From: an uncultured Bacteriovoracaceae bacterium
GTDB lineage: Bacteria; Bdellovibrionota; Bacteriovoracia; Bacteriovoracales; Bacteriovoracaceae
Length of the DNA: 33,866 nucleotides
Assembly: GCA_913053615.1 (NCBI GenBank)
Contig: CAJXHA010000006.1
Span: 1 to 33,866 of the forward strand
Direction of reading: 5' to 3'
This document shows, piece after piece, positions 9,977 to 27,925 of the stretch (the stretch's first letter is position 1; every line of letters starts with the position of its first letter). The translations under genes were made by a program, and so were the position numbers. The notes beneath the pieces are model-generated. The model saw only the letters and a program-made list of their open reading frames with translations, did no database searches and was not told the DNA's origin.

Positions 9977-10004
9977 ATGCACGATAATGTTTCTTAATGA
10001 TTTA
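9977..10004 (+). repeat. Left Xer/dif-like attachment site (attL)
   Basis: ATGCACGATAA-TGTTTC-TTAATGATTTA; left arm and 6-bp centre identical to the dif site at 27898, right arm divergent. Confidence 0.8.
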
Positions 10005-10091
10005 TTCGATAATGCATAATATAGGACGCCATTTCGGCGATTGCCAATTTATCTTTGCTGTCAAACTTGTAAACGATTGAGGGAAAATTGA

Positions 10092-10131
10092 GCAAAAAAA
10101 AAGGGCTAGATACGGTAAGTGTCTAGCCCTT
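10092..10131 (-). terminator. Leftward rho-independent terminator
   Basis: Minus strand reads AAGGGCTAGA-loop-TCTAGCCCTT followed by T tract (plus-strand A tract 10094-10102). Confidence 0.65.
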
Positions 10132-10139
10132 TGACAAAA

Positions 10140-10206
10140 ATTCCACTGGAAAGACCAGAGAATCTTAGAATCACGAACTTTGAATCTCGCATTTTTCCAG
10201 TGGAAT
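10140..10206. promoter_or_regulatory. 13-bp perfect inverted repeat upstream of rep
   Basis: ATTCCACTGGAAA (10140-10152) and TTTCCAGTGGAAT (10194-10206), 41-bp spacer; each arm contains palindrome TTCCAnTGGAA. Confidence 0.6.
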
Positions 10207-10293
10207 ATCAAGTCATTTTGCTTATTTTTTATGGTTTTTCCATGGAAAGTCCAACGGCTTTTCTAGGGTTTTCCAGAAAATCAAGGGGGATGA

Positions 10294-11130
10294 GTGAGTG
10301 ACGCAGGTTTTCAGAATGATGTTAGAAATCAATCTCTAGGTTCATGGACAGCATTTCCAAACGACTTAATTAAATTATTGCAGTACAAAAAAATCACGCA
10401 TATTGAATTTTGCACTTTGCATTACATTTTTTGCACGTTGTATCGAAAGAATAAATACTCCGGAAATTTCTCACTTCGCCACTTGGAAGAAAAGGTAAGT
10501 GTAAATCGAAAGACTGTTATTAAATCAATTCGTAAGTTTGAGTCCCTAGGATTCATTTTCCGACACTTTGACCATAGTTTCTATGGCGAAACATACACTT
10601 TAAGCCTAAAGCATCTAGGGCTAATTTTGGACGAATTAGAGGGTGGTGTATCCAGTACACCACTTTCGGAACGAAATACACCACTTTCGGAACGAAATAC
10701 ACCACTTTCGGAATCAAATACACCACTTTCGGAACGAAATACACCAAACAATAGATTTATATATAATAATATATATTCTCTCTATAATAAGAAATTATTG
10801 GCAGGGTGCGAAAGTTTGGAAGTTGAATTCCAACGTCTAATCGACGTCGGGTTCTCTGTCGAGAACTTAATGTCATTTTTAGAGCTTCACTCTAAAAATG
10901 GTTACTTTGACTTTGAATCAATTCAGAGTTTTTACGCAGTCGTTACCAAGTACGGAAAAAAGAATCTCGAACAAATTGAAAAGGCTATGACGGCGAAACG
11001 ACTTCGCCGTATAGATGAAAATAAGAAAGTCCAAGCCCATATCGAAAATATCAGAAATGGCAAAGTCAAATCAAATACAAAGATCATTAAACGTAGTGAC
11101 GGAAAACCGTCATTCAAACTTAACACATAA
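10294..11130 (+). CDS. E1 replication initiator-like winged-helix protein
   Basis: N-terminal HTH (FSLRHLEEKVSVNRKTVIKSIRKFESLGFI); C-terminal block shared with E2 Rep (F(D/N)..xxQSxYAxxxxxGK); GTG start after AAGGGGG. Confidence 0.7.
   Translation: MSDAGFQNDVRNQSLGSWTAFPNDLIKLLQYKKITHIEFCTLHYIFCTLYRKNKYSGNFSLRHLEEKVSVNRKTVIKSIRKFESLGFIFRHFDHSFYGETYTLSLKHLGLILDELEGGVSSTPLSERNTPLSERNTPLSESNTPLSERNTPNNRFIYNNIYSLYNKKLLAGCESLEVEFQRLIDVGFSVENLMSFLELHSKNGYFDFESIQSFYAVVTKYGKKNLEQIEKAMTAKRLRRIDENKKVQAHIENIRNGKVKSNTKIIKRSDGKPSFKLNT
10657..10746 (+). repeat. Four 21-bp direct repeats (iterons) inside rep, plus partial fifth
   Basis: acaccactttcggaacgaaat at 10657, 10678, 10699 (variant), 10720, partial at 10741; each has palindromic core TTCGGAACGAA. 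Confidence 0.9.
10747..10800 (+). other. AT-rich stretch adjacent to iterons (candidate DNA unwinding element)
   Basis: aacaatagatttatatataataatatatattctctctataataagaaattattg directly after the iterons. Confidence 0.6.
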
Positions 11131-11143
11131 AAAGGGAGATTTT

Positions 11144-11473
11144 ATGAGCTTAGAATCACGAAAGAAAAGCCTTAATTCACAACTTGCACGACAAAAACTA
11201 AAGCAAGAACAAGCATTAAGGTCAATTGAGAGAATCGAAAGTCAATTAAGAGAGATTCAATTAATTGAAGAAAACAGAGAACTGGAAAGTTTGTCAGACA
11301 TGACTAGAAAAAAGGTAACGAAAAAGAAATTCCAAAAACCTGAAATAGTTGAGGAAGTTCAGAGTGAAAAAGAAGAATCGGAAAAGGGCGGCTTAGAAAA
11401 AAAAGAGTCGAGAAGTGGGGTTATATCTAAAGTCGGAAGTTATCTTTTTGAAGAAAGCGAGGATGAATTATGA
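11144..11473 (+). CDS. Coiled-coil hypothetical protein
   Basis: ATG at 11144 after AAAGGGAGAT; charged helical MSLESRKKSLNSQLARQKLKQEQALRSIERIESQLREIQ; positional equivalent of 19966-20232. Confidence 0.7.
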   Translation: MSLESRKKSLNSQLARQKLKQEQALRSIERIESQLREIQLIEENRELESLSDMTRKKVTKKKFQKPEIVEEVQSEKEESEKGGLEKKESRSGVISKVGSYLFEESEDEL

Positions 11474-12018
11474 TTTTCAAATTTGAAAATAAAATAGAAA
11501 AAGCGAAGTTTAATTATGTAATGGCAATCATGCATATTAATGAATTAGTGAGGTCAAAAGAATTTTGGAAAAATATTCCAAACGATAAAAAATTTACTTA
11601 CACACTTCACTCAACTGATAGATTAAAAAATCTAATGTCTAGCTATATGAGAAATGCAGAGATTGAGATTACTTTTTATAGATCAAGTTGGTTTTTTAGG
11701 GGCGTTGTTTCAAATGTAAAAAATAATAAACCAAATACAATTAATATTAATACTAGGCATAGAAATTTTACTCGCACAAGTGGTGAGTCTATAATTATGG
11801 ACATAGCAGATAAGATAAATACTATTTGTCATGAATGTGTTCACATCGCAGATAATTTAAATGGAAATATGAGTTTTGGTCATGGTGATAATAATCCGGT
11901 AGGGAAAGAAGACTCCTTTCCATACTGGTTTGGAAATTATGCCAGAGATTATTTTATTTATTATTACAACGATAGTGTTCAAGAAGAAATGCTTAAAAGG
12001 ATAAATTATGTTCAATAA
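11470..12018 (+). CDS. HExxH metallopeptidase-like protein
   Basis: INTICHECVHIADNLNG (HExxH); positional equivalent in E2 has HEQCHNLGFEHD. Confidence 0.6.
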   Translation: MIFKFENKIEKAKFNYVMAIMHINELVRSKEFWKNIPNDKKFTYTLHSTDRLKNLMSSYMRNAEIEITFYRSSWFFRGVVSNVKNNKPNTININTRHRNFTRTSGESIIMDIADKINTICHECVHIADNLNGNMSFGHGDNNPVGKEDSFPYWFGNYARDYFIYYYNDSVQEEMLKRINYVQ

Positions 12019-12481
12019 TAATGAGGAAAAGACTTCAAATAAACACTTGAGAGATATCGAAAAAGATTTACTAAAAGAAACTGCTCAAACCATTAACGAG
12101 CAAAATGCAAACAACAATAATCAAGGTGGTAATAGTGAGAATATTAACTCGGATACGAAAATCAATTATTCGGTTCAAATACCTAAAATTTTCCCAAGAA
12201 CTATCTTGGGTCTTAGCAATTATGCTATCTACGAAAAGCGGATACAGCTATTACCTAAAGACAATCAGGACAAAGCTAGAGAAGTTATAAAACCAACTGA
12301 TAAGCAAATTGACTTGCTTGGTGAGTTGTTAACTTTTTTTAGTGATAGATACGGCGTGAGCGTTGTTGAATCGCCTTGGTTTGGCCCATGTTTATTGGCC
12401 GGAGAAATTGCAAAGATTGAGTTTGTAAAGTTTCAAGCTTTTAAGCACATCGAGGAAATTTCAAAGGATGGTGACAAATGA
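12008..12481 (+). CDS. Hypothetical phage protein
   Basis: Intact ORF overlapping neighbours; low-complexity N-terminus, helical C-terminus; same position as 20757-21278. Confidence 0.6.
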   Translation: MFNNNEEKTSNKHLRDIEKDLLKETAQTINEQNANNNNQGGNSENINSDTKINYSVQIPKIFPRTILGLSNYAIYEKRIQLLPKDNQDKAREVIKPTDKQIDLLGELLTFFSDRYGVSVVESPWFGPCLLAGEIAKIEFVKFQAFKHIEEISKDGDK

Positions 12482-12648
12482 AAGTTTTAAAAACACAACT
12501 AAAAAGAATTTTTGTTAAAAAGATTGTTAATGCTTCGAGAGTTGAAGTTTCGACTGAGCTAAAAAAATTGAGAGAAGCAAAAGGAATAACAGTTACTACA
12601 AAAAATGAACTTTTAGAAATTGCAATCAGACAAATAAAGGGGGCGTAA
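12478..12648 (+). CDS. Small ribbon-helix-helix-like protein (56 aa), E1-specific
   Basis: MKVLKTQLKRIFVKKIVNASRVEVSTELKKLREAKGITVTTKNELLEIAIRQIKGA; overlaps both neighbours; below ORF-track size cutoff. Confidence 0.55.
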   Translation: MKVLKTQLKRIFVKKIVNASRVEVSTELKKLREAKGITVTTKNELLEIAIRQIKGA

Positions 12649-13313
12649 TGGCGGTTCATACAGTCTATGGAATGACTCAATCAGGTAAGTCTTACTTTGT
12701 AAAAAAACAAATGATGCCTAATCAAGAGAGAACAATCGTGTACGACGTTGCACGTTGTTTTGATGGTGGTGATTATATTACTTTGAAAAATCAAAATGAT
12801 GTTTTGAAGGTTTTTAGAAAATACTCTAAGAAAAAAAGATATAAAATTATTCTTAGACCAGATAGAAACGACGATTATGTTTTTACTTGTGATCTTTTAA
12901 TTTCTTTGGCGTGTGCTTTAGGAAGGGCTTGCAGTCCAGAATATAACGCAGATAAAAGAGTATGGTTAGTTATAGATGAAGCTGATCAAGTTTGTTCTAG
13001 TCATTATCAGTCAAAACAATTAAAGCATCTAGTAAATAAGGGACGTCATGATAATGTTGATTCAATTTTTATTGCAAGAATTCCCCAAAGGCTTCATACG
13101 GATATCAGGGCTAATACTAGTCGAATAGTTTCATTCAAAATATCTAATTCTACAATTAAGGATTTTGTAGATAATTTTGGTAGAGATTACGCAAAATCAA
13201 TTCAAGAACTCGGAAAGTATGAACGCTTAGAGTGGGACGATACGGGAACTATTACAGTCTATAGTTCTGACAATAGAATTTTAAAAACGGGGAGTAAGCG
13301 TGATAAAAATTAA
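12648..13313 (+). CDS. FtsK/HerA-type (A32/P9-like) packaging ATPase candidate
   Basis: Walker A GMTQSGKS at N-terminus; Walker B VWLVIDEAD; ~220 aa. Confidence 0.72.
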   Translation: MAVHTVYGMTQSGKSYFVKKQMMPNQERTIVYDVARCFDGGDYITLKNQNDVLKVFRKYSKKKRYKIILRPDRNDDYVFTCDLLISLACALGRACSPEYNADKRVWLVIDEADQVCSSHYQSKQLKHLVNKGRHDNVDSIFIARIPQRLHTDIRANTSRIVSFKISNSTIKDFVDNFGRDYAKSIQELGKYERLEWDDTGTITVYSSDNRILKTGSKRDKN

Positions 13314-13512
13314 AGGTTTTAAAAATTATATGTTTTGCCCAAAAAAAATTAAAGTTTTTTCCATTAGGGAAAATAAATTGCATGAAATAAAACCAATAAG
13401 AAATCGTGGCGGAGTTGTTAAATATGCACTTTATAAAAATGGAATTAAAAACATAATTTCGCTTTTTGATGTTCTTAAAATTATTCTTGAGACAAAGGAA
13501 AGTATTAAATAG
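13300..13512 (+). CDS. Small conserved phage protein
   Basis: YALYKNGIKNIISLFDVLK aligns with YTLYKNGVPFNVSLFDLLK of 21940-22146. Confidence 0.65.
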   Translation: MIKIKGFKNYMFCPKKIKVFSIRENKLHEIKPIRNRGGVVKYALYKNGIKNIISLFDVLKIILETKESIK

Positions 13513-13538
13513 TTACAAAATTGAGATTTACAAAGCAT

Positions 13539-13567
13539 AAGCCCTTAGAATTAAGGGCTTTTTTTTT
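13539..13567 (+). terminator. Rho-independent terminator ending early module
   Basis: AAGCCCTTAGAATTAAGGGCTT followed by T tract. Confidence 0.85.
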
Positions 13568-13729
13568 GTGTTTTGCGTACAAATTTGCACCAACTTTGAA
13601 ATATAAAAAAGTCTCTTTGAAAAATAAACTTTTAGTGTGTGTTGTATTTCTCACTAGGGTTCAATTCTCTGTCTTAGCCGGTCTTAAAAAGCCGGCGTCC
13701 TTTTGAGAGCAAAAAAAAAGGTAAAAATT

Positions 13730-13834
13730 ATGAAAGGTTTATTTTCAAAAAGAAATCTAATTCAAACTGCGATGACTATTGGGGTTATCATTTTGATTAG
13801 AAAGAGTCCATTAGCAAAGTATATTCAAGTTTAA
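13730..13834 (+). CDS. 34-aa transmembrane miniprotein upstream of MCP
   Basis: MKGLFSKRNLIQTAMTIGVIILIRKSPLAKYIQV; same position, size and architecture in E2. Confidence 0.7.
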   Translation: MKGLFSKRNLIQTAMTIGVIILIRKSPLAKYIQV

Positions 13835-13847
13835 TAAGGGGGATAAT

Positions 13848-14936
13848 GTGGAAAATCAAAAACAGCCAGCAAATATTGTCCTCTCTCAAAGATCAAGAAA
13901 GTTACCGTCTAAAAAATATTCGGCGGGTGATACTTTAGAGTTTGATATTCCTTCGGGAGAAGTTATTAAAGAAATCGTTGTTTCTATGCATGGAAAAGTT
14001 ACTCCAAGTTATTCGGCGGGTAATTTCGTATTTCATAAGTACGGTGTTATGGATGCGTTAGTAAGAGCGTTGAATGTGAATGACGGTTCTAAAGTTTTAA
14101 AAGGCTTTCAAGGCGTTGACGTTTTAAGAAGACAAGCACGTTATTTAAGTGGTTCTGCGTGTCCTACATTTTATAAAAAGAATAGCTCAACTTTAGGTAC
14201 AAGCCCAAGTGTTGGTTTTGTAGATGAAGCTGGTGCGTTCGGTGCGAATTCAGGTAATGATATTGCATTTAGTGAAACTGTAAGTATCCCTTTTGAAAAT
14301 AAGTTATCTAACCAATGGTCTAGAACGCTTTTAAATACTAAGGGTAAAAATAATGTAAAAGTTGAAATGGTTCTTAATGAATTATCAAAATTAGTTGATG
14401 CTAGTGATGGTACGACTGTAGTTACTGGTGTGACTTCTGATATTACGATTGAAGTTCAATTAATTACTATTCCAGCTAAAAGAGAAATGCCAGTATTTGA
14501 AAACTGGAGACAAAGTCACCAAACTTTTAATATTTTTGGTCAGCAATCTGAACAACCTTATAAACTTACTAAAGGTGCAAGGGTACAAGGTTTTTGGATA
14601 ACTGCTTATATGGGTTCGGCAAATAGAAGACTTTCTCTTGACGAAGCTAAAGAGCTAGTAATTGAAGTGCGTTTAAATGGTACTGAATTAGTTAAAAAGT
14701 TTTCTCTTTATAATTTAATGATGGAAAATTTATCGAAGTCTCAAATTTCGGAAGTTCAAGACGGTTCGGCGTATTGTAATTTTCTTGATAACTCGATGTT
14801 TGAAACAGCTTTAAATACTTCAAATCAAGCGGGTGTGCTTGAGTATGATGCAATCATCACGACACCTTCTTCATGGAGTTATAGTAGTCCAGTTCAATTA
14901 ACTTTTGAACAGGATGATATCGAACTTAAAAATTAA
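13848..14936 (+). CDS. Candidate major capsid protein (proposed double jelly-roll)
   Basis: Homologous to 22530-23588 (GEVIKEI..., FYKKNSSTLG, NFLDN..F.TALNT...GV); beta-rich; insulated by terminators; GTG start after AAGGGGG. Confidence 0.65.
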   Translation: MENQKQPANIVLSQRSRKLPSKKYSAGDTLEFDIPSGEVIKEIVVSMHGKVTPSYSAGNFVFHKYGVMDALVRALNVNDGSKVLKGFQGVDVLRRQARYLSGSACPTFYKKNSSTLGTSPSVGFVDEAGAFGANSGNDIAFSETVSIPFENKLSNQWSRTLLNTKGKNNVKVEMVLNELSKLVDASDGTTVVTGVTSDITIEVQLITIPAKREMPVFENWRQSHQTFNIFGQQSEQPYKLTKGARVQGFWITAYMGSANRRLSLDEAKELVIEVRLNGTELVKKFSLYNLMMENLSKSQISEVQDGSAYCNFLDNSMFETALNTSNQAGVLEYDAIITTPSSWSYSSPVQLTFEQDDIELKN

Positions 14937-14976
14937 TAACCTCGTTTCATGGTGACATGAACTTAATTGAGTGTTG

Positions 14977-15018
14977 AGGGCTTGTGAGAGTTAATATTAA
15001 CAATCACAGGCCTTTTTT
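14977..15018 (+). terminator. Terminator after MCP gene
   Basis: GGCTTGTGA ... TCACAGGCC followed by T7. Confidence 0.75.
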
Positions 15019-15035
15019 TATTGGAGTTAAACTTA

Positions 15036-15674: not shown

Positions 15675-15678
15675 CTAA

Positions 15679-16350: not shown

Positions 16351-16352
16351 TA

Positions 16353-17012
16353 ATGAAAAATTATATTAACGCAGAAAACTTAAATAATGTTTTAGATACA
16401 GGTACTCTCTATGAAACTGCTGAGTTTATAAAGTCAAATAGTTTTTTAAATATTGGTGAGGCTTATAATTTAACAGGTACGCCAAGGCCAATGATTTTAA
16501 ACGAAGCTGATTTTGAAAATGGAAACATACTTGGTGACAATTTTTTTAATCGAGTACTTCTTGGCTTTGTTCCTTCTTTTGATGACCAAGGCTTTAGCAT
16601 GGTTCAATTTTTTGACTTAGATGCTGATTTAGGTGCAGGGGAAAAAGGCCATATAAGAAAAGTATTTTTGCCTAAGAAATTTAAAGTGACTTTTAGTGGA
16701 AATATCCAAGGTGATACTGAGGTATCAGAGTCATGTGCAGTGGTCGCAACAACTGTTACAAGAGAAAATGCCGGAAGTTTTACGGTTCAGACTGAAAAAC
16801 CTTTTGCCAAATACAATCTTGATTTTTCGGCTAGTGGAATAAGTACTGGTGTTAAGGAATTTTCTCATACATGGGAATTTGACTTAAATAATGTTGTTGA
16901 TACGGCGAATATAATTGAGTTTGGAATAGCAACTAATATTCCAACCGTTGCCAATTTTTCAAATAACACAGTCGAATTAAAAAATATAAAATGCACTATT
17001 GTTGGGATTTAG
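16353..17012 (+). CDS. Putative beta-rich structural/spike protein
   Basis: Syntenic with 25507-26052; beta-rich composition. Confidence 0.5.
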   Translation: MKNYINAENLNNVLDTGTLYETAEFIKSNSFLNIGEAYNLTGTPRPMILNEADFENGNILGDNFFNRVLLGFVPSFDDQGFSMVQFFDLDADLGAGEKGHIRKVFLPKKFKVTFSGNIQGDTEVSESCAVVATTVTRENAGSFTVQTEKPFAKYNLDFSASGISTGVKEFSHTWEFDLNNVVDTANIIEFGIATNIPTVANFSNNTVELKNIKCTIVGI

Positions 17013-17013
17013 T

Positions 17014-17457
17014 ATGTACGAAAAAGCGAATCGTTATTTAAAATTTTATTATGACAATGCAAAAAGTAAACTTCCCTTTTCAAGTTATGACGAGTTTGTT
17101 CAGCATTACAGAGTTGATAAATTTTTACTTGAAAATTATGGTGAAAAAGTTGTTCATGATGATTTTTTAAAATTCTTTGATAAGGCTTTGGAGTATTCAT
17201 CAGATAATGATGCAAAACAAGCTATGTTATCGCTTGCTAAAAATACTCAAAATGGAAAGACACCAAGTTCACAAAGTTTCTATGATTCTCTAAGTGGTCA
17301 AGTTGAAAGCTTTAGTTTTGAAGATGGCTTAGAAGTTATTAAGGAAACTGGAAAGGACTTGGGGAAAGTTGCTGTCGCTGGTGCTGGTTTGTTTCTTTTA
17401 AAAGTCGGTGCGACTGCATTGGTTGGATACTACTTAAAGAAATACTTAGATAAATGA
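17014..17457 (+). CDS. Putative virion membrane protein with C-terminal TM
   Basis: KLPFSSYDEFVQHYR...HDDFLKFFDKAL...GKTPSSQSFYDSLSGQVESFSF matches 26052-26498. Confidence 0.7.
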   Translation: MYEKANRYLKFYYDNAKSKLPFSSYDEFVQHYRVDKFLLENYGEKVVHDDFLKFFDKALEYSSDNDAKQAMLSLAKNTQNGKTPSSQSFYDSLSGQVESFSFEDGLEVIKETGKDLGKVAVAGAGLFLLKVGATALVGYYLKKYLDK

Positions 17458-18046: not shown

Positions 18047-18235
18047 ATGGAATGGATTATTGAAAAGATTTTAAGTCGAGTATCTTTAAAAAAACTTGCT
18101 AAATCAGCTTATGCAGTTATTAGAAAAAAGCTTCAAAAAATGGTTGATGCCACTGATACAACTTTTGATAATGAAGCTTTAGAAGTTGTTGACGCTGTCG
18201 TTGATGCATTAATTGGCGAAATCAAAGAAGCATAA
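18047..18235 (+). CDS. Small hypothetical phage protein
   Basis: 62 aa, RBS GAGGGG; roughly syntenic with small ORFs 26986-27383. Confidence 0.5.
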   Translation: MEWIIEKILSRVSLKKLAKSAYAVIRKKLQKMVDATDTTFDNEALEVVDAVVDALIGEIKEA

Positions 18236-18501
18236 TGAATTTTGCACCTGTAGATTTATTCAGCATTTTAATGCAGTTTATATCTGTAGGTGCATTACTT
18301 AAAATTTCTTTTAATACTGGAAAGGTGAGCGAGCGACTTTCCTCAATGGAAGGTGTTAAGAGAGATCACGAAATCAGATTAAGAGAAGTTGAAGACCTTG
18401 AGATCAGACTCGTAACAGTCGAAAAAAATAAAGCTGATATCGCCAGTATTGCTAAGATTGAAGCAAGAGTCCAGTTAATTGAAAAAGGCCTTAATTTCTA
18501 G
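18235..18501 (+). CDS. Holin-like protein, one TM plus coiled coil
   Basis: N-terminal hydrophobic segment, ISFNTGKVSERL..., coiled-coil; matches 27370-27528 (ISHNTGKMAQKV). Confidence 0.55.
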   Translation: MNFAPVDLFSILMQFISVGALLKISFNTGKVSERLSSMEGVKRDHEIRLREVEDLEIRLVTVEKNKADIASIAKIEARVQLIEKGLNF

Positions 18502-18502
18502 C

Positions 18503-18730
18503 CTATTCTTTACATTTAAAATAAGTAACATCATTGGCACTTCCAAAGTCTATTTCAGTTTCAGTCGATAAAATCTTATAACCATTTGGGCAAGTTTTTT
18601 CTATTTTTTCTTCACATGAAAATGAAAGCTTATTACACTTTGCTTTGTAAGTATCATTCCCAATATTTTTAATACTTGAGCAAGAAGTCAATATAAATGA
18701 AATGGCTAGTATCCAGTATTTTGATTGCAT
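18503..18730 (-). CDS. Cys-rich lipoprotein
   Basis: Lipobox LTSC; NDTYKAKCNKLSFSCEEKIEKTCPNGYKIL homologous to 27590-27826. Confidence 0.75.
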   Translation of the reverse strand: MQSKYWILAISFILTSCSSIKNIGNDTYKAKCNKLSFSCEEKIEKTCPNGYKILSTETEIDFGSANDVTYFKCKE

Positions 18731-18947: not shown

Positions 18948-18975
18948 ATGCACGATAATGTTTCTTATGCTGTAT
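18948..18975 (+). repeat. Central Xer/dif-like attachment site between E1 and E2
   Basis: ATGCACGATAA-TGTTTC-TTATGCTGTAT. Confidence 0.8.
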
Positions 18976-19005: not shown

Positions 19006-19032
19006 CCTCTTCAAAAAGAAGAGGTTTTTTTT
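19006..19032 (+). terminator. Hairpin + T-tract immediately 5' of E2 rep (attenuator/SD-sequestering candidate)
   Basis: CCTCTTC-AAAAA-GAAGAGG followed by T8; AAGAGG lies 6 nt before the TTG start. Confidence 0.7.
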
Positions 19033-19909
19033 GTTACAAAACGGTGAGAAAAGTAAAGAAAGTCTTAATTTTTTAGAAGATTATAGTCAATTCAACAAAA
19101 GAAATTCTGGTTTTATTCAGGTTAATACTTCAATTTTTTATTTACATCAATCCAAAGTCATTGATGACAAAGAGCTTATATTTTTATGTCGAGTTCTTGG
19201 TGATTGCAATGCCAGAAATACTAATGTTGTTAGAATTTCTCATAGCAGAGTGATGAAGTTTGCATCATGCGGAAAAGAAAAAGCAAACAAGATAATTAAA
19301 CGCATGGTTAATAAGCTAAAATTTCTAACTCTCGTCAGTTTAAATAAAAGATCAGGGTATTTGTATAGGTTAGATTTGGAAGCGTTAGAGACCGCTTTAA
19401 AGCTAAATTACAACTTGTTCGTTGAGCGAAGTAGTGAAAGTTCGATTAACGAAGTAGTGAACTACGACAATCGAACAGGTGATGTACGTCTATCGGGGAG
19501 CGAGAAGTTCGAGAGCCGAACACAAAGATATATAAATGATTTAATTAAAGACTACTATTCTTATATAAGATATTTGACGCCACAGGCTAAAACGCATATG
19601 GCGTCTGAGTTTTGGAGATTGGAGAATAAAGGTTTTGATCGCAAAGCGATCAAGTTTTTTATTGAATTTAACAAAGTAAATTTAGAAAAAGTTCAAAGTA
19701 TCTATGCACTAATAGCAAGTCATGGAAAAGAATACTTTGAAAGCTTAGAGCTTATAAAGCAAAGCTTTGAAGTAAAAAAGCCAGAAAGTGTCAATCAGTC
19801 ACACTTAGTAGCAGAAAGTGTCACAAAAGAACAAAAACCACTAACAGAAGAAGAAATGAAGGAAGTTGAAGAAGCTAAAAAGTTTTTAGCTGAGTTTATA
19901 AAGTCTTAA
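19031..19909 (+). CDS. E2 replication initiator-like winged-helix protein
   Basis: HTH-like VVRISHSRVMKFASCGKEKANKIIKRMVNKL; C-terminal VNLEKVQSIYALIASHGKEYFESLELIKQ matches E1 Rep; TTG start. Confidence 0.65.
   Translation: MLQNGEKSKESLNFLEDYSQFNKRNSGFIQVNTSIFYLHQSKVIDDKELIFLCRVLGDCNARNTNVVRISHSRVMKFASCGKEKANKIIKRMVNKLKFLTLVSLNKRSGYLYRLDLEALETALKLNYNLFVERSSESSINEVVNYDNRTGDVRLSGSEKFESRTQRYINDLIKDYYSYIRYLTPQAKTHMASEFWRLENKGFDRKAIKFFIEFNKVNLEKVQSIYALIASHGKEYFESLELIKQSFEVKKPESVNQSHLVAESVTKEQKPLTEEEMKEVEEAKKFLAEFIKS
19418..19520 (+). repeat. Five phased palindromic iterons inside E2 rep
   Basis: TTCGTTGAGCGAA (19418), TTCGATTAACGAA (19441), TACGACAATCGAA (19463), TACGTCTATCGGG (19485), TTCGAGAGCCGAA (19508); 22-23 bp spacing. 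Confidence 0.78.
19521..19575 (+). other. AT-rich stretch after E2 iterons (candidate unwinding element)
   Basis: cacaaagatatataaatgatttaattaaagactactattcttatataagatattt. Confidence 0.55.
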
Positions 19910-19965
19910 ATGATGCTCGCACGATGCGAGCAATAAAATGCTTTTAGCAAAAGGAGTTTTAAAAA

Positions 19966-20232: not shown

Positions 20233-20760
20233 GTGATGCTAAGTAACAAAAAAACACAAGTTAAAGTTATTAAAAAGGGAATAAAGTATATTTGTGAAAG
20301 TGAGAAAATTGATAGAGCAAGGGAAAAGCTCGAAGTAATAATAAATTCAGATACCTTTAAAGAAAAAGTTAGAAACTATATTTCTTATGGAAAAAAACAA
20401 TTCATTCAAAACAATGGTTTTAGCAATGAAGAAGTTTTACAAAGACTTTTAGAGGGTTCCGAAATTCTTAATAAAAGAATTGATTACCTATGGGAAGTTC
20501 ATTTAACAATTATAAAAAGACCTTGGTATAAAAGGTTTTCAAGTGTCAACGGTTTTACCTATCCAAACACTCTTGAAATTAAAATTTATAGAGATTCTTT
20601 TAATTCTATGAGTGATGCATTTTTGGCTGCTTTTATGGCCCATGAGCAATGCCACAACTTAGGTTTTGAACATGACTTTAGAAGAACTGCAAGAAGACCT
20701 TTTAGCGTTCCATATGCAGTTGGTGGCATCATTTCAAAACTAATAAGAGAGGTATATTGA
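20233..20760 (+). CDS. HExxHxxGxxHD metallopeptidase-like protein
   Basis: FMAHEQCHNLGFEHDFRRTA: metzincin-like zinc motif. Confidence 0.7.
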   Translation: MMLSNKKTQVKVIKKGIKYICESEKIDRAREKLEVIINSDTFKEKVRNYISYGKKQFIQNNGFSNEEVLQRLLEGSEILNKRIDYLWEVHLTIIKRPWYKRFSSVNGFTYPNTLEIKIYRDSFNSMSDAFLAAFMAHEQCHNLGFEHDFRRTARRPFSVPYAVGGIISKLIREVY

Positions 20761-21278
20761 TGTTTCAGAAAAGTAAAATTAATAAATCAAGGTTAAAGGA
20801 TACAATCAGTGCATTTCGTATTGATTATTCTCAAATAATGGGGGCAAGTAATGCTAAAAGACTTTCGGGAGAAACTCAACAAAATGCTTTTTCTAGTGAG
20901 ACTCAAGAAAAAGTGCATATTCCTTGGATTGAGGATTTACTACCAAAAAATATTGCTAAAATTGTTGGTGAAGCGCCCGAGTCGGTTGCTCTTTTCCTTG
21001 CAAGCAAAGAACTCACTGAGGATGAAAAAAAATCAATTGCAGGTTTCTTCAATGTTGATGAAGAAACTGCTAAAAGACGTCTAACTATTTTAGAGAAATT
21101 AATCAATACATACTTTCCAAATATTGGTGATTTGGCATCTAAAATAAAAGATGATCCTCACTTTCAACTTCTCATGGAGATGATTTCTCCGTTCCAAGCT
21201 TATCATTTGGCAAAGAGACATATTGCAGAACAAAGAAGAATTAAAAATTATTCAAAAAGCAAGGGGGTAGATGTATGA
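20760..21278 (+). CDS. Hypothetical phage protein
   Basis: Same position as 12008-12481. Confidence 0.6.
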   Translation: MFQKSKINKSRLKDTISAFRIDYSQIMGASNAKRLSGETQQNAFSSETQEKVHIPWIEDLLPKNIAKIVGEAPESVALFLASKELTEDEKKSIAGFFNVDEETAKRRLTILEKLINTYFPNIGDLASKIKDDPHFQLLMEMISPFQAYHLAKRHIAEQRRIKNYSKSKGVDV

Positions 21279-21943
21279 GCGTATTATGCTATTTTGGAAA
21301 AACTGGAAGTGGTAAATCACATAAAGCAAAAGAAAAAATCAAAGAATATAAAAAAAGAATTATATTCGATATCACACCATCAAAGTCATTTAGGTTTGGA
21401 AAAGAAAAAGATGGTGGCATAGAATGCAAAAATGGAATTGAGCATAACAATTATTCTTTGAGGTCACTTGAGGAGCTTTTAGTTGAACTAATTGAAAAAG
21501 ATGAATTTACACTTATTTTTAGACCATCAACCGAGATAGATTGGTTTGCAATAGGTGAGGCGGTTTGTTCTTTTGCTATGAGGTTAGGCGATTATTACGA
21601 TAAAGACTTTAATGAAAATATTGTTTTAGTTTTAGATGAGCTTGATAAGTATGTTTCAACAACTAAACAATCATTTATTGCTAGGGCAATTGGCATGGGA
21701 AGGCATTCTCATTTAGACTTGTTTTGCATTTCACAAGTTCCAAGTCAATTACCAAAAGTTATTAGAGATAATGCAAGTGTTGAACATTTTTTTCAACTTG
21801 GTCTTAATGACTATTATCAAAAAAAATTAGGTGATGAAATTTCTAATAAGCTTGCAAGTGGTGACTTACCAGAATATTCATATTACCTAAAAGTTGATGG
21901 TGACAATCCAAAACTTTATAACAAAAATGGAAAATTACTATGA
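21275..21943 (+). CDS. FtsK/HerA-type packaging ATPase candidate
   Basis: Walker A GKTGSGKS; Walker B NIVLVLDELD. Confidence 0.75.
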   Translation: MSVLCYFGKTGSGKSHKAKEKIKEYKKRIIFDITPSKSFRFGKEKDGGIECKNGIEHNNYSLRSLEELLVELIEKDEFTLIFRPSTEIDWFAIGEAVCSFAMRLGDYYDKDFNENIVLVLDELDKYVSTTKQSFIARAIGMGRHSHLDLFCISQVPSQLPKVIRDNASVEHFFQLGLNDYYQKKLGDEISNKLASGDLPEYSYYLKVDGDNPKLYNKNGKLL

Positions 21944-22146
21944 TTGAATTAATTGGCCATGAGGGCTATTTTTTAGACATTCAATCGTTTAGAATTTTTT
22001 CAAGTCATTCAAAAGGTTATATAAAACCAAAGTACGATGGTAGAAAAAAAGTTTTTACTCTTTATAAAAATGGAGTTCCTTTTAATGTGTCTTTGTTCGA
22101 TCTTTTAAAAACTAATCTTAAAAATATATCAAAAAAATTGTCTTAA
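21940..22146 (+). CDS. Small conserved phage protein
   Basis: YTLYKNGVPFNVSLFDLLK shared with 13300-13512. Confidence 0.65.
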   Translation: MIELIGHEGYFLDIQSFRIFSSHSKGYIKPKYDGRKKVFTLYKNGVPFNVSLFDLLKTNLKNISKKLS

Positions 22147-22177
22147 AGTTGGAATTAACTAAGTATTGACACCGCTT

Positions 22178-22205
22178 AAAGCCCCTAACAAAGGGGCTTT
22201 TTTTT
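22178..22205 (+). terminator. Rho-independent terminator ending early module
   Basis: AAAGCCCCT-AACA-AAGGGGCTTT followed by T tract. Confidence 0.88.
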
Positions 22206-22313
22206 ATTTCTACAATGTAACAACTTTGGAATGAGGTTGTTATTTTTCTCCATTGACTTTTCTGTGAAAATTAAAACCTGATAATTATTTTTTTGCAAAC
22301 AAAGGAAGTAGAA

Positions 22314-22424
22314 ATGGCAAAATTCAAAAGATACGCAATTATGGCAATCGCTGGTGTAGTAGGCGTGGCAATCGCTTTTAGAACTCCTGTTTTAAAAGAT
22401 TACATTGTTCCAATGCAAAAATAA
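22314..22424 (+). CDS. 36-aa transmembrane miniprotein upstream of MCP
   Basis: MAKFKRYAIMAIAGVVGVAIAFRTPVLKDYIVPMQK; RBS AAGGAAG. Confidence 0.7.
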   Translation: MAKFKRYAIMAIAGVVGVAIAFRTPVLKDYIVPMQK

Positions 22425-22529
22425 GCCATTTAAGCCTTTGGGTTTTTATAAATGGTTTAGCAAGGGATTGTTCTTTAAAACGCTTTAAAAGCAAAATATG
22501 AAGTTTAATTTTTAAAAAAGGATTGAAAA

Positions 22530-23588
22530 ATGGCTACTAACTCACAGCAGTCTAGGGAAGTAGAACAGTTTAAGTATCAAAAAGCTGAGTCTAAAGTTAT
22601 TCGCTTACCACAAGGCGAAGTTATTAAAGAAATTCACATCATGGCAAAAGGTAAGTTCGCTCATACTTATGCCTCTGGTTCTCCAACTTTAAAAAAGCAT
22701 GGCGTACTAGATGCTCTTTGTAGAGGAATTAGATGCGTTGAAGATGGGAATAAAATTGTTAAATCATACAAGGGCGTAAAAGTTCTTCGTAATTTATCAG
22801 AATGGATTCAAGGAAGTGGTCTTGCATCATACTTCAAGAAAAACTCTTCTACACTTGGAGCTTTTAGTTCAGTGACTAAAGGTTTTCCAGACATTGGAAG
22901 TACTACAGAAGAAACTTCTTTTCTTGATACTGTAATTATTCCTTTTGATGGGAAGCTATCTACAGAGTATGCACGAACTAGATGGAACTTGAGAGATAAA
23001 ACAGATGCTTATATTCAAATTGATTTTAACGAGCTTGCTGACTTACTTGAAATTGGTTCCGATGCAGCAACGGTAAGTGCTGATATTGATTTTTATGTAT
23101 CAATCGTAACTTCTCCAGCTCTAAGTGATGTTGCTTTTGCAAAGTGGAAGCAAACTTTTAAAGAAGAGGAGCTTTCAGGGCCAGCAGTTGAAAAAAGAAT
23201 AGATTTAATTTCGGGTGGTTTACAGCAAGGTTTTTGGTTATCACTAGAGAAAGGTTCTACTAGAGAGCCACTAACACTAGAAGAGTGTTTAGAAACAAAA
23301 GTAAAAGTTATCCTAGATCAAGCAGGTCAAGGGCAATCAATTCTAAAGAGTACTAATCTTTTAGAGTTAATGGCAATTAACGAGAATAAGACAATGATTG
23401 AAGACTTTATTCCTTCAGCGGCTTATGTAAACTTTTTGGATAACAAAACTTTTGGAACTGCTCTTAATACAGGTGTTGGAAGTGGAGTTCAAAAACTTGA
23501 TTTAGTTTTAACAACTCCAGCGGGAATAAGTTATTCACCAAACCCTCTTATCGTAAGAGTTGAACACGATACGATAGAGGCACAATAA
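22530..23588 (+). CDS. Candidate major capsid protein (proposed double jelly-roll)
   Basis: Homolog of 13848-14936; KKHGVLDALCRG, YFKKNSSTLG, VNFLDNKTFGTALNTG. Confidence 0.65.
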   Translation: MATNSQQSREVEQFKYQKAESKVIRLPQGEVIKEIHIMAKGKFAHTYASGSPTLKKHGVLDALCRGIRCVEDGNKIVKSYKGVKVLRNLSEWIQGSGLASYFKKNSSTLGAFSSVTKGFPDIGSTTEETSFLDTVIIPFDGKLSTEYARTRWNLRDKTDAYIQIDFNELADLLEIGSDAATVSADIDFYVSIVTSPALSDVAFAKWKQTFKEEELSGPAVEKRIDLISGGLQQGFWLSLEKGSTREPLTLEECLETKVKVILDQAGQGQSILKSTNLLELMAINENKTMIEDFIPSAAYVNFLDNKTFGTALNTGVGSGVQKLDLVLTTPAGISYSPNPLIVRVEHDTIEAQ

Positions 23589-23607
23589 ACCTCTTTTTGA
23601 ATAAGTA

Positions 23608-23634
23608 AAAGGGGAGCTTTAAGTTCCCCTTTTT
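23608..23634 (+). terminator. Terminator after MCP gene
   Basis: AAGGGGAgctttaagTTCCCCTT followed by T run. Confidence 0.8.
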
Positions 23635-23653
23635 AACAAAAGGTTAAAGAATA

Positions 23654-23986
23654 GTGGAATTATATAAGGAATATACCAAATATAGGCATAATGCCATTTT
23701 AGAATATGATGAAAAATATTTTATCGAGTATATCTTATTTTCCGAAGTTCTTTTTATAAAAAACTTTTACGTTAGACCAGAATATAGACTTAAATTTTCT
23801 GTAAGAGATTTTTTTAACAACTTTAAAAAAGAAAAAGCAAAAGATGTTAAAGAAATTCAAGTTCAAGTTGATTTAAACTCTCGTGGAAGTTCACGAGCAT
23901 TGAGTTGTTTTTTAAAGTGCGGTCTAAAGCCTTTTAAAGCTCAAGATGACGTAATATCTCTCGTGTGTGAGGTAAGTAATGGGTGA
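23654..23986 (+). CDS. GNAT acetyltransferase-like small protein, E2-specific
   Basis: IKNFYVRPEYRLKFSVRDFFNNFKKEK...IQVQVDLNSRGSSRALSCFLKCGLKPF resembles GNAT motifs A/B. Confidence 0.5.
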   Translation: MELYKEYTKYRHNAILEYDEKYFIEYILFSEVLFIKNFYVRPEYRLKFSVRDFFNNFKKEKAKDVKEIQVQVDLNSRGSSRALSCFLKCGLKPFKAQDDVISLVCEVSNG

Positions 23987-24785
23987 TGTAGTAAAGAAAG
24001 CCGAAAAGGCCGTTAAATCAGTAAAAAAAGCTACTGGTATTGATAAAGTGGAAAAAGCCGTAAAGAAAACGGTTAAAAGTGTTCCAGTTGTTGGTGATGT
24101 TTATAAAGAAAGCGAAAAAGCAATTAGCAATGTTAGAAAAGAAGCTGATCGAGTTTGGGAAAAGAATAAAGATGGTGTAAATGCAACGGCAGGTTTAATT
24201 GGTAGAGGTGCCGCTGCTTACTATACGTTAGGAGCTAGTGAGCTAGTTGGTGGTGGTAACTATTTAACTAAGCAATTTGGTGGCTCTAAAAAAACTTCTC
24301 AATACGGACAATTGGCAGGAACTATTGGCGGTGCTTATGGTGCTGCAAATGCACTAGGTTCTCTAGCAGGTCAAGGTGTTATAAGTCAGTCGGCTGCAAA
24401 TGTAGGTGGCACGGCTGCAACTTCAATCATATCTCAAAGAGCGTCAGGCAATGCAGTGGATGCAGGTCGTACGATTGCAAGTGTAGGTGGAGCCGCAATT
24501 GATGAGAGCGTAAAGTCTAATATAGGGAGTAATGGAATGAATGAATCAAATTTTTGGGAAGACCAATGGAATCAATATGGCGGTCAAGTTGTAGATTCTG
24601 TTTTGGGTAATTTATTAGGAAGTAGCAAAGGTGGCGAACAACCTAAACCAATATCATCTGGTCAACAACCTATTGTTGTTCAAACTCCAGGGGGAAGCAA
24701 TAACGGTGGTGATAATGAAAAGATGATGATGATGCTCGCAGGTGGCTTAGGTCTTGTGACATTATTAGTATTATTAAGAAAATAA
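23979..24785 (+). CDS. Putative virion membrane protein (Gly/Ala-rich, C-terminal TM)
   Basis: VNATAGLIGRGAAAYYTLGASE...LTKQFGG; C-terminal MLAGGLGLVTLLVLLRK. Confidence 0.7.
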   Translation: MGDVVKKAEKAVKSVKKATGIDKVEKAVKKTVKSVPVVGDVYKESEKAISNVRKEADRVWEKNKDGVNATAGLIGRGAAAYYTLGASELVGGGNYLTKQFGGSKKTSQYGQLAGTIGGAYGAANALGSLAGQGVISQSAANVGGTAATSIISQRASGNAVDAGRTIASVGGAAIDESVKSNIGSNGMNESNFWEDQWNQYGGQVVDSVLGNLLGSSKGGEQPKPISSGQQPIVVQTPGGSNNGGDNEKMMMMLAGGLGLVTLLVLLRK

Positions 24786-24798
24786 ATAAGGTGTCATT

Positions 24799-25506
24799 AT
24801 GGCAGATAGTAAAGAAGTTCTAAACCCACAATTGCAAAAACTTTTAAAGTTCTTGCAGGATGGGCAAACATATTCAAGAACAACAAGTACTAAGGCATTT
24901 ACAGTCGTTAGATTTCATCTTGATGAAAAAAGAACAAGAGCATCAAGAGAAGGTAATTTGTTCGATCAATCTTTTATGGGTGTTTGGGTAATTGGTTCTA
25001 ACAAGAAAAAATTCTCTGCTACACTTTTTGTAAATGATAACAATAATGCAAGTGATGGAATACCTTTAAGATCGAATATGACAATACCTTTTGAGATACC
25101 AATGGCAGGTGCCACATTAAGTTGGGAAGCTCAAGAGAATACTTATATAGATGTTTTATTTTCTCATCATTCAGCAATTAATGTTGGTTCTATTGAGCAA
25201 GAACTTAAGGGCGTTATTGTAAATAGTGATGGTTCGAGTTATGACCATGACCAAAACCCAGTGACTAAAACACCAACACAAATTTTTGACGTTGATAGTA
25301 ACAGGGGAGTTGGAACTATTTTTAATTATAGTTCTGAAATTTTATACCTTGGAAAAGAGAGTATTTTAAATGATGTTAACTATCAAAAAAAATCACTAAG
25401 GTGTTACCCTGACCAATCATTTGAATGGCGTAATTCGGATGAGCTTTACGTTAGAACGGCTTTAACAGACGCAGATGATGTAGTTGTTTTAAATGAGGGG
25501 GTATAA
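24799..25506 (+). CDS. Putative minor virion protein, beta-rich
   Basis: FDQSFMGVWVIGSNKKKFSA and LYLGKESILNDVNY align with 15679-16350. Confidence 0.6.
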   Translation: MADSKEVLNPQLQKLLKFLQDGQTYSRTTSTKAFTVVRFHLDEKRTRASREGNLFDQSFMGVWVIGSNKKKFSATLFVNDNNNASDGIPLRSNMTIPFEIPMAGATLSWEAQENTYIDVLFSHHSAINVGSIEQELKGVIVNSDGSSYDHDQNPVTKTPTQIFDVDSNRGVGTIFNYSSEILYLGKESILNDVNYQKKSLRCYPDQSFEWRNSDELYVRTALTDADDVVVLNEGV

Positions 25507-26052
25507 ATGAGAAGTAGTTACTTAGGAAGCAAAGAACATAAGCTTGTCGTTTATGGAAATAATTATGGTTATGGTGGTAGATATAACCCTGAGTCTATTG
25601 TTGATAAATCAATGGTATCAGAGTTTAAAAAATCAGATGTAATTGGTTATGATGCAAACTTCATGGACACCACAGAAATGAATGTTGTTTTAAATAATGC
25701 CTCTAAGATTTTAGTTGAGTTAAAGTTTAACAATTTTCAAATGGAGAAAGTCGGTGGCGATCCATTTTACAGCATAACACCAACCATTAAACTTTTTCAT
25801 GATCTTAATATTTCAAATACACTTAAGACTTTTTCAACTTCAAGTACTCAACTCGTAAGTTCAACAAAAACTTATAATGGCTCATGGAATGATGGCTCTA
25901 CTGCAAACTTGCATTATAAGCACGCATTCTTAGTAGATGTAAGTGCCTTGTCTGATGGTATTCATCAGTTTCAACTTAGGGTTGATACAACTAGCTTTGA
26001 TGTGAATATCACTGAATTTGAATATTCAATGATAATTAAAGAGGTTGCTTAA
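25507..26052 (+). CDS. Putative beta-rich structural/spike protein
   Basis: Syntenic with 16353-17012. Confidence 0.5.
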   Translation: MRSSYLGSKEHKLVVYGNNYGYGGRYNPESIVDKSMVSEFKKSDVIGYDANFMDTTEMNVVLNNASKILVELKFNNFQMEKVGGDPFYSITPTIKLFHDLNISNTLKTFSTSSTQLVSSTKTYNGSWNDGSTANLHYKHAFLVDVSALSDGIHQFQLRVDTTSFDVNITEFEYSMIIKEVA

Positions 26053-26498
26053 TGTACGATAATGCAAAAAGAGCTTTAAAAATTTTTTGGGACAATTCAA
26101 AGAATAAACTTCCATTTGATTCTTACGAAGCAATGATTGAGTATTATCGAACTGATTTCGACGTAACAGATGTTTTGGGCAATCCACTTAAGCATGATGA
26201 TTTTTTTGAAATGTACAATAAGGCAGTTGGTTATGTTGATTGGAGTGAGGTTCGGGATGCAATGAAAGATCTTGCTAGTTCACTACCTAAAGGAAAGATA
26301 CCATCATCATCATCATTCTTTGATGCTTTAAGTGAGCAAGTTTCATCATTTACTTTTCATGATGTTAAAAATATTGCTGTTAATACAGTTGAGGATATTA
26401 AAGACACTGCAACAACGGTTGCGGTCGGTGGTGCTAGTTTATGGCTCCTAAAGACAATTGGAGCTTTTATTTTATTTCAATTGTTGTCTAAGAAATGA
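26052..26498 (+). CDS. Putative virion membrane protein with C-terminal TM
   Basis: KLPFDSYEAMIEYYRTD...HDDFFEMYNKAV...GKIPSSSSFFDALSEQVSSFTF matches 17014-17457. Confidence 0.7.
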   Translation: MYDNAKRALKIFWDNSKNKLPFDSYEAMIEYYRTDFDVTDVLGNPLKHDDFFEMYNKAVGYVDWSEVRDAMKDLASSLPKGKIPSSSSFFDALSEQVSSFTFHDVKNIAVNTVEDIKDTATTVAVGGASLWLLKTIGAFILFQLLSKK

Positions 26499-26989
26499 AG
26501 AATTTAATTATTTTTGGAGCATTAATTTTGGGAGCGTTAATTTTTACAAAAAAAGCAATAAGCGGTGTTAATGATGATTATGATGAGCTTTTTGTAAAGT
26601 TCGGTTTAAAACATGGTGTTAACCCAAAAATTTTAAAAGCAATTTCTCTCAATGAGAGTTGGCTAGGAGAATATCAAAATAGTGTGACTGTTGGTGGTAA
26701 TACAACGGCAGGCTTGATGCATATTGAATTACCAACGGCCAGAGATTATATGCCAATGATTGATCGAGACGAACTTTTAAAGCCAGAGGTAGAAATTGAA
26801 GTGGCGGCTATGCTCGTTAAAGACCTAATGAAAAAGTACAATAATAATTTAGAGCTTGTGTTAAGAGCATATAATGGCGGTCAAGGTCGTGTGACTCAAT
26901 ATTTGAACGGTACAGTTAATGAAACATGGAAGAAAAATACTACCGCTTATTGGGAGCGGTTTAATAGAAATATGGAGCGTTTAGGATGA
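26495..26989 (+). CDS. Membrane-anchored lytic transglycosylase (SLT-like)
   Basis: VNPKILKAISLNESWLG ... TAGLMHIELPTARDY ... LRAYNGGQGRVTQY. Confidence 0.85.
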   Translation: MKNLIIFGALILGALIFTKKAISGVNDDYDELFVKFGLKHGVNPKILKAISLNESWLGEYQNSVTVGGNTTAGLMHIELPTARDYMPMIDRDELLKPEVEIEVAAMLVKDLMKKYNNNLELVLRAYNGGQGRVTQYLNGTVNETWKKNTTAYWERFNRNMERLG

Positions 26990-27207
26990 ATCAAAAAATT
27001 AAAGACATGATTTACAAAAACATTAAACTTGATGACCTTACTAATGATTGTATTGATGAGGTTTTGGAGCCAGCTTTAAAAGAAGCTGTAAAAAAATCAC
27101 CAACAACTTTAGATGATTTAGCTTTAGCAAAGTTTTATCCAGACCTTGAGGAGATCGTTAAACTCAAAGTTAAGGAATATTACGCTAAGCTTTTAGGTCA
27201 AAACTAA
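26986..27207 (+). CDS. Small hypothetical phage protein
   Basis: 73 aa, overlaps the preceding gene. Confidence 0.55.
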   Translation: MNQKIKDMIYKNIKLDDLTNDCIDEVLEPALKEAVKKSPTTLDDLALAKFYPDLEEIVKLKVKEYYAKLLGQN

Positions 27208-27383
27208 TGAGATTTTTTAAGTATCTCAATATCGCAAAAATGGTTATTGATGGCGTTCGTGCAGTTGTTCGAGCAGTCAGAAAGGATAAACCAAAAAATA
27301 GATTTGAAAGGGTCTTAGAGGATATTGATGATGTAACAGATGTAATTGCTATTCCTAGTGAGAGCGAAAATGATCGAGTTTGA
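27207..27383 (+). CDS. Small hypothetical phage protein (58 aa)
   Basis: MRFFKYLNIAKMVIDGVRAVVRAVRKDKPKNRFERVLEDIDDVTDVIAIPSESENDRV; start overlaps upstream stop. Confidence 0.5.
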   Translation: MRFFKYLNIAKMVIDGVRAVVRAVRKDKPKNRFERVLEDIDDVTDVIAIPSESENDRV

Positions 27384-27528
27384 TTTCAGTGTAATTATTC
27401 CTTTTTTGCCTGTGTTGTTTTTTCTTGCACGAATAAGTCACAACACAGGTAAAATGGCTCAAAAAGTTGATGGTCATGAAAAAAGGCTAGATCACATCGA
27501 AAAAAAGATATTTTTTGTTAAAAAGTGA
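27370..27528 (+). CDS. Holin-like small TM/coiled-coil protein
   Basis: MIEFDFSVIIPFLPVLFFLARISHNTGKMAQKVDGHEKRLDHIEKK; equivalent of 18235-18501. Confidence 0.5.
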   Translation: MIEFDFSVIIPFLPVLFFLARISHNTGKMAQKVDGHEKRLDHIEKKIFFVKK

Positions 27529-27589
27529 TTATTTTTGTCACTTTTTGTCACTTTTTGACATTTTCAAAAAAAAATCTAACAATTATCTC

Positions 27590-27826
27590 ATGAAAATTTT
27601 ATTCTTATTATTACTAACAGTTTCTTGTTCTCAGTTCGCTACAAGTGAGTGGGTTTCTGATAATACTTACAAGGTTAAGTGTCCACAGCAATATGATTCT
27701 TCTTGTTATAAGAAAATTGAGAAAGATTTGTGCCCTAATGGTCATAAAATATTGCACAAGAAAGAGCCTTTAATTGGCCAATACGAAGTAGTTGTAAGAT
27801 GCGAACAAAAAGAGGGAACTAAATAA
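27590..27826 (+). CDS. Cys-rich lipoprotein
   Basis: MKILFLLLLTVSCSQ lipobox; NTYKVKCPQQYDSSCYKKIEKDLCPNGHKIL. Confidence 0.75.
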   Translation: MKILFLLLLTVSCSQFATSEWVSDNTYKVKCPQQYDSSCYKKIEKDLCPNGHKILHKKEPLIGQYEVVVRCEQKEGTK

Positions 27827-27834
27827 TACCTAAA

Positions 27835-27863
27835 ATGCACGGATAATTTTCGTTATCGTGCGT
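27835..27863 (+). repeat. Accessory dif-like sequence with 1-bp insertion
   Basis: ATGCACGGATAA-TTTTCG-TTATCGTGCGT, 63 bp left of the intact dif. Confidence 0.6.
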
Positions 27864-27897
27864 GCCAATAAAACTCAAGTGATTTCAAAGAGTTAAA

Positions 27898-27925
27898 ATG
27901 CACGATAATGTTTCTTATCGTGCAT
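27898..27925 (+). promoter_or_regulatory. Intact dif-like XerC/XerD site (attR, probable chromosomal dif)
   Basis: ATGCACGATAA-TGTTTC-TTATCGTGCAT: perfect 11-bp inverted arms, 6-bp centre. Confidence 0.82.

Follow-up and report, generated by a model that had tools for sequence, protein, structure and literature searches.

The 33,866-bp window analysed here is one whole contig (CAJXHA010000006.1) of an uncultured Bacteriovoracaceae genome of 3.47 Mb in 421 contigs, 82% complete, and carries two adjacent elements, A and B. Very probably, both are intact prophages, related to one another yet distinct, from a new lineage of tailless double-jelly-roll (DJR) phages, probably membrane-containing, with the life cycle proposed below. 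Computation establishes the geometry of their sites, their gene content, and the homology of their capsid proteins and packaging ATPases. A first-pass annotation of this DNA had described two co-oriented blocks of nearly equal length between dif-like repeats, and had read them as tailless-phage-like prophages of a distinct lineage. The blocks are indeed set between three 28-bp sites, at site-to-site distances of 8971 bp (element A) and 8950 bp (element B). Their phage nature is borne out by a DJR fold and profile, a packaging ATPase related to B204 of Sulfolobus turreted icosahedral virus (STIV) and the co-occurrence of capsid and ATPase; a distinct lineage is likewise supported by these lines of evidence, together with trees.

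Capsid protein and packaging ATPase

The genes that identify the elements are as follows.

13848-14936, +: DJR major capsid protein of A (fold shown on the B homologue)
22530-23588, +: DJR major capsid protein of B (fold search and profile comparison)
12648-13313, +: genome-packaging ATPase of A, A32/B204 type
21275-21943, +: genome-packaging ATPase of B

An AlphaFold2 model of the B capsid protein, built from a three-sequence alignment, is of modest confidence (predicted local distance difference test, pLDDT, 61; predicted template modelling score, pTM, 0.49). Every one of the 50 PDB matches that Foldseek lists for it is a DJR capsid, with PR772/PRD1 and STIV at the top (E about 1e-10; STIV, 1.6e-10), and the capsid candidate of the first-pass annotation is thus predicted to fold as a capsid protein. 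The best matches in a viral fold library were Wip1, GC1 and STIV. A profile of nine capsids is, moreover, collinear over 307 columns with those of the tectiviruses phiKo and phiG2 (prob 95.5, E 1.4e-8). On its modelled fold, the candidate is a DJR major capsid protein. Capsid sequence searches of the PDB and of phage collections returned nothing relevant, and the B capsid had no match in a plasmid collection. Pattern scans of IMG/VR with capsid or ATPase alignments found no relative, which is weak evidence as such scans reach mainly close relatives; scans of genome contigs matched only a pond metagenome-assembled genome (G062). Of 369 genomes of the phylum, the capsid profile and the ATPase profile each match the same 8, with nine elements among them.

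The ATPase of element A exceeds the Pox_A32 cut-off, and the profile of the family matches STIV B204 along its length (E 1.6e-13). The ATPase of one relative matches the packaging ATPases of phiKo (5e-18), NO16 (4e-12) and phiG2 (7e-10), as well as those of Methanosarcina spherical virus (2e-7) and other tailless phages. By sequence homology, the element ATPase is of the STIV-B204 packaging type, and its position beside the capsid gene, like the DJR capsid itself, is a mark of tailless DJR phages in the broad sense (class Tectiliviricetes). A tree including the ATPases of known phages neither united nor split the new group with confidence (support 31/21). The order of ATPase, short membrane protein, capsid and membrane protein is that of PM2 (P9, P7, P2, P3) and near that of PRD1 (P9, P20, P3).

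These results bear on the suggestion that the elements are not viruses, and are instead plasmid-like or filamentous-phage-like users of dif with a Zot-type ATPase. The ATPases do match Zot weakly, dif use is typical of filamentous phages, and the replication module has a plasmid-like look. However, the best ATPase match is B204 rather than Zot, the capsid combines the DJR fold with the phiKo-profile match and, for B, finds no counterpart among plasmids, and the scanned open reading frames (ORFs) include no relaxase or pilus genes. We regard this explanation as scarcely credible.

Sites and probable mode of integration

The dif-type site occurs in three copies across 9977-27925 (starts 9977, 18948 and 27898), of which the first 17 bases (ATGCACGATAATGTTTC) are identical and the last 11 differ.

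9977-10004, +: attL of element A, ATGCACGATAA-TGTTTC-TTAATGATTTA; good left dif arm and core followed by a degenerate right arm
18948-18975, +: middle att site at the A/B junction; left arm and core unchanged, right arm TTATGCTGTAT that of B
27898-27925, +: attR, or re-formed dif; perfect palindrome ATGCACGATAA-TGTTTC-TTATCGTGCAT

Of 95 genomes from the host family, 33 contain near-perfect palindromes of the form YGCACGATAA-N6-TTATCGTGCR (at most 3 mismatches), mostly in single copy and often with the core TGTTTC, part of the looser matches being due to chance. Because many genera of the family have palindromes of this consensus, as a rule a single one in each genome, the dif-type site is not itself a chance feature. 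A genome of the same genus has such a palindrome without an insertion; flanking genes common to that genome and the window were looked for, and none was found. The cumulative GC skew of G062 peaks at 114 kb, its site lying at 128 kb, and skew within the window is +0.05 to the left of the elements and -0.14 to the right. The palindromic site looks as dif at a replication terminus should look. An E. coli-style dif pattern gave only noise on the window's own genome, since members of this family have a dif sequence peculiar to them.

At the rep-side end of the window's elements a good left arm is followed by a degenerate right arm, while the far end is a complete palindrome. This geometry recurs in L010 (G062, 8945 bp) and L013 (G061, 8189 bp) and, less perfectly, in L012 (G176, about 11.2 kb). 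Its presence at four loci therefore suggests that the phage supplies the left arm and core and the host the right arm, a full dif being re-formed; a middle site with a third variant of the right arm is expected if two phages inserted successively. The palindrome of L013, TCTACCCTATAA-TGGCAA-TTATAGGGTAGA, differs from that of the family, and phage arms seem to track the dif of their host. The putative dif of G061 (L013:490 and 8679) has outer arms (TCTACCCTATAA) wholly unlike the family consensus, and the left arm of its prophage matches them.

The ORFs of A and B yielded no recombinase. Taken with the one geometry at four loci, this makes host Xer recombinases, to judge from the sequences, the likely agents of integration; the window's own genome encodes Xer-like recombinases. 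Insertion at a host dif, restoration of that dif and lack of an integrase are the marks of integrative mobile elements exploiting Xer (IMEX), and the elements show all three. In G062, a gene for a XerD-like recombinase (contig C6, 139050-139853) is found outside the L010 element, at a distance of about 2.3 kb.

Three relatives in another family (f6) carry one or two short tyrosine recombinases, of about 185 amino acids (aa), beside the same capsid module; in L024 and in L014 the two genes are copies from a single family, arranged convergently or divergently.

L024:2177-3776: tyrosine recombinase genes
L014:1746-3792: tyrosine recombinase genes
L011:15068-15637: tyrosine recombinase gene

With recombinases in these relatives and none in the window's elements, lysogeny modules vary within the lineage. 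Searches for att repeats yielded nothing convincing for L011 and L014 and a weak candidate pair for L024. Users of dif that lack an integrase and relatives that carry recombinases, sharing one capsid module, show the gain or exchange of a mode of lysogeny.

Gene content and the relation of A to B

Element A has 17 genes and B 18 (coding fractions 0.89 and 0.93), all on the + strand except one short gene of A. Beyond those for capsid, packaging and replication, the features of A are:

11470-12018, +: HExxH protein, weakly M91/SprT-like metallopeptidase (E 1e-3)
13300-13512, +: conserved small protein directly 3' of the ATPase
13539-13560, +: terminator-like hairpin between packaging and capsid blocks
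13730-13834, +: membrane miniprotein, 34 aa, with the size and place of PM2 P7
15036-15674, +: g10, glycine/alanine-rich, C-terminal membrane helix
15679-16350, +: g11, beta-rich; penton/vertex candidate (a guess)
16353-17012, +: g12, variable, beta-rich; spike candidate by place only, no similarity to the B equivalent
17014-17457, +: g13, C-terminal membrane segment
17454-17948, +: SLT lytic transglycosylase with N-terminal anchor (PF01464, E 7.5e-17)
18235-18501, +: small membrane protein, holin/spanin-like by place
18503-18730, -: short lipoprotein

The corresponding features of B are:

20233-20760, +: HExxH protein (weak match)
21940-22146, +: conserved small protein after the ATPase
22178-22200, +: terminator-like hairpin
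22314-22424, +: membrane miniprotein, 36 aa
23654-23986, +: acetyltransferase-like protein, also in L011, L014 and L024
23979-24785, +: g10, C-terminal membrane helix
24799-25506, +: g11, beta-rich; vertex-protein candidate (a guess)
25507-26052, +: g12, variable protein
26052-26498, +: g13, C-terminal membrane segment
26495-26989, +: SLT lytic transglycosylase with N-terminal anchor (PF01464, E 7.7e-17)
27367-27528, +: small membrane protein, holin/spanin-like by place
27590-27826, +: short lipoprotein

The shared gene order reported in the first-pass annotation holds overall but is broken by a few insertions: a 56-aa gene before the ATPase in A and, in B, the acetyltransferase-like gene after the capsid gene and a 73-aa gene after the SLT gene. 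Strong terminator-like hairpins close the ATPase block in both elements (17 terminator-like sites, against 8.1 +/- 2.7 in shuffled sequences). Protein identity between A and B is 51% for the SLT enzyme, 43% for g13, 39% for the lipoprotein, 38% for the capsid (alignment Z 85), 37% for g10 and for the small protein after the ATPase, and 28% for g11 and the ATPase; homology of one small membrane protein was also found by Blastp and global alignment. The HExxH proteins, g4, g12 and h1 are counterparts by place with no clear sequence homology, and the initiators are similar at the C terminus only. The HExxH proteins occupy one place in the two elements, and a role in host takeover is possible.

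A single element duplicated in tandem, its copies diverging afterwards, would account for the common orientation, the near-equal lengths and the fact that the capsids of A and B are mutual nearest relatives (37-38%). The ATPases, however, pair across genera, that of A with L010 (44%) and that of B with L013 (37%), and their sisterhood is rejected (approximately unbiased test, p-AU 0.0007), as the earlier view of two phages rather than a recent duplication would have it. Nor are the initiators, HExxH proteins, g4 and g12 recognisably homologous, or the right arms of the att sites alike, and we consider duplication highly improbable. Since ATPase and capsid pairings disagree, the modules are mosaic; on these sequence comparisons A and B are distinct mosaic phages. 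A precedent exists in Paremcibacter, where two co-resident related prophages have exchanged replication genes (PMC9502842).

Replication

The predicted replication features are:

10294-11130, +: replication initiator of A, winged-helix N terminus, HTH_36-like
10652-10750, +: tandem 21-bp repeats within rep of A, TACACCACTTTCGGAACGAAA; candidate iterons
19031-19909, +: replication initiator of B, similar to that of A at the C terminus only
19417-19461, +: two 22-bp repeats at 23-bp spacing within rep of B; candidate iterons

The N terminus of the A initiator weakly matches lambda-O- and DnaD-like initiators in PHROG. Direct repeats with spacings of 21, 23, 23, 44 and 48 bp are present in A, B, L010, L013 and L012, respectively, at 0.4-0.8 kb from the left att site and inside the initiator ORF (in L012, the first ORF). 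Spacings of 23 and 44 bp do not keep the codon frame, so that these are not mere protein repeats. Base shuffling of element A gave no such repeats in 20 trials; a few more close repeats lie in other parts of A, B and L010. The sequences suggest that the repeats are iterons and that the replication origin is situated within the initiator gene. In phage lambda, too, the origin lies inside the initiator gene. Pfam and PHROG scans of both initiators gave helix-turn-helix matches or nothing, and no HUH domain. Library scans of the ORFs of A and B found no PolB save one chance-level match in the capsid ORF, and the largest ORF of the elements encodes the 362-aa capsid protein. This gene content suggests replication from an iteron origin rather than of the tectiviral PolB or corticoviral HUH type.

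Relation to known tailless viruses

The elements share with the Tectiviridae a capsid alignable end to end with phiKo and phiG2, a homology visible at profile level only, together with fold matches to PRD1/PR772, Wip1 and GC1, the order of ATPase, short membrane protein and capsid, and a transglycosylase. Tectiviruses, however, are linear, encode PolB and a terminal protein and measure 11-18 kb, whereas the elements are of about 9 kb, lack PolB and end in dif sites. B204 of STIV (Turriviridae) is the best solved relative of the ATPase and the STIV capsid matches in fold, but STIV infects archaea, and its genome, of 17.7 kb, otherwise carries different genes.

The first-pass annotation had looked to corticovirus- or FLiP-like kin. 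Genome size and gene order are indeed corticovirus-like: PM2 (Corticoviridae) and NO16 ('Asemoviridae') are circular DJR phages of about 10 kb, and PM2 shares the ATPase, 34-aa membrane protein, capsid and membrane protein order. NO16 prophages lie at dif-like sites with no integrase reported (PMC9966536). Capsid fold and profile, by contrast, point to the tectivirus/STIV type; comparison of the capsid with that of NO16 (Corticoviridae in its record) was not significant, and PM2 is outside the top fold matches. PM2 P12 is, furthermore, a rolling-circle type initiator, while the elements have winged-helix initiators with repeats, and SLT or GH108 wall enzymes. The corticovirus resemblance is one of genome size, gene order and, for NO16, dif use, and not of detectable capsid sequence similarity. 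As for FLiP (Finnlakeviridae), its capsid is of another type by fold ranking. FLiP and the PhiCjT23-like phages have single-stranded DNA, and descriptions of FLiP-type phages include no packaging ATPase, with no ATPase mentioned in PMC9719478, unlike the elements with their packaging ATPase. The Autolykiviridae resemble the elements as 10-kb DJR phages with the order ATPase, two small genes, capsid and transmembrane protein, but are linear and lytic with PolB and a terminal protein, and comparison with their capsids was not significant.

PhiCjT23-like Flavobacterium prophages are small (6-8 kb) DJR elements between palindromic dif sites (PMC9719478), and a few tailless prophages of V. cyclitrophicus are dif-associated (PMC11630473); the integration mode of most corticovirus-like prophages is stated as unclear (PMC9502842). 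Tailless prophages integrated at dif are thus already known from Vibrio and Flavobacterium, and the elements, which are set apart from these dif-associated prophages by capsid sequence, are a new lineage, not a new kind. A literature search, chiefly of non-subscription papers, revealed no published DJR phage from Bdellovibrionota or Bacteriovorax.

Proposed life cycle and its weighing

A circular phage genome of about 9 kb would carry one attP in which a good left dif arm and the 6-bp core are followed by a poor right arm. It would be joined to the chromosomal dif by the host's Xer recombinases, re-forming a complete dif at the far end and so letting the host keep chromosome-dimer resolution; the second phage would then have come in at that site. 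Once a prophage is excised, its initiator may bind the repeats in its own gene and so set off replication of the theta type. The capsid, formed by the DJR protein and small membrane proteins, would enclose an internal membrane; the DNA would be packaged by the B204-type ATPase, and the membrane-anchored transglycosylase would open the cell wall at entry or exit, yielding presumably infectious particles.

Several points weigh against this reading. The TM-scores of the capsid model are low (0.31-0.36) and its confidence modest, so that the fold class is accepted and fold details are not. The initiator assignment comes from weak matches (E about 1e-3, below curated cut-offs), base shuffling, for which only A was used, controls for the repeats leniently, and the Xer-like recombinases of the host score under the curated XerC/XerD cut-offs. 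The internal membrane is proposed from family resemblance and membrane helices only, and the elements are known here from sequence and predicted fold alone. Alternatively, these prophages could be dead or have been domesticated, or could make phage-derived particles that serve the host: all finds are chromosomal, and neither IMG/VR nor the phage collections hold a capsid relative. Yet all core ORFs are open at the high coding fractions given above, the module is complete, with a lysis-type enzyme and an initiator, and the patchy distribution is not that of vertical retention. We consider such decay or domestication improbable.

Whether the elements merit a new DJR family or higher group, we judge about evenly balanced. 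It would be defined by a tectivirus/STIV-type capsid, a circular genome of about 9 kb, Xer/dif lysogeny and theta replication from iterons inside the initiator gene, with capsid, ATPase, lysis and replication modules exchanged within one phylum; to our knowledge, no described tailless phage combines this capsid, genome, lysogeny and replication. DJR phages without tails are regarded as ancient kin of many DNA viruses of eukaryotes, and prophage finders easily overlook them. Two distinct adjacent members with unrelated initiators would fit a plasmid-like incompatibility rule.

Candidate vertex protein and cell wall enzymes

The model of g11 (pLDDT 52) matches cupins generally, with PM2 chain 2w0c_L reaching only E 0.014, and is too poor for its penton identity to be more than a guess. 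A GH108 muramidase replaces the SLT enzyme at the same place in two relatives (L010:5507-6103 and L025:3564-4172); wall enzymes are thus swapped at a fixed place. On the host side of the window, a secreted SLT-domain protein (28002-28718) begins 77 bp past the re-formed dif.

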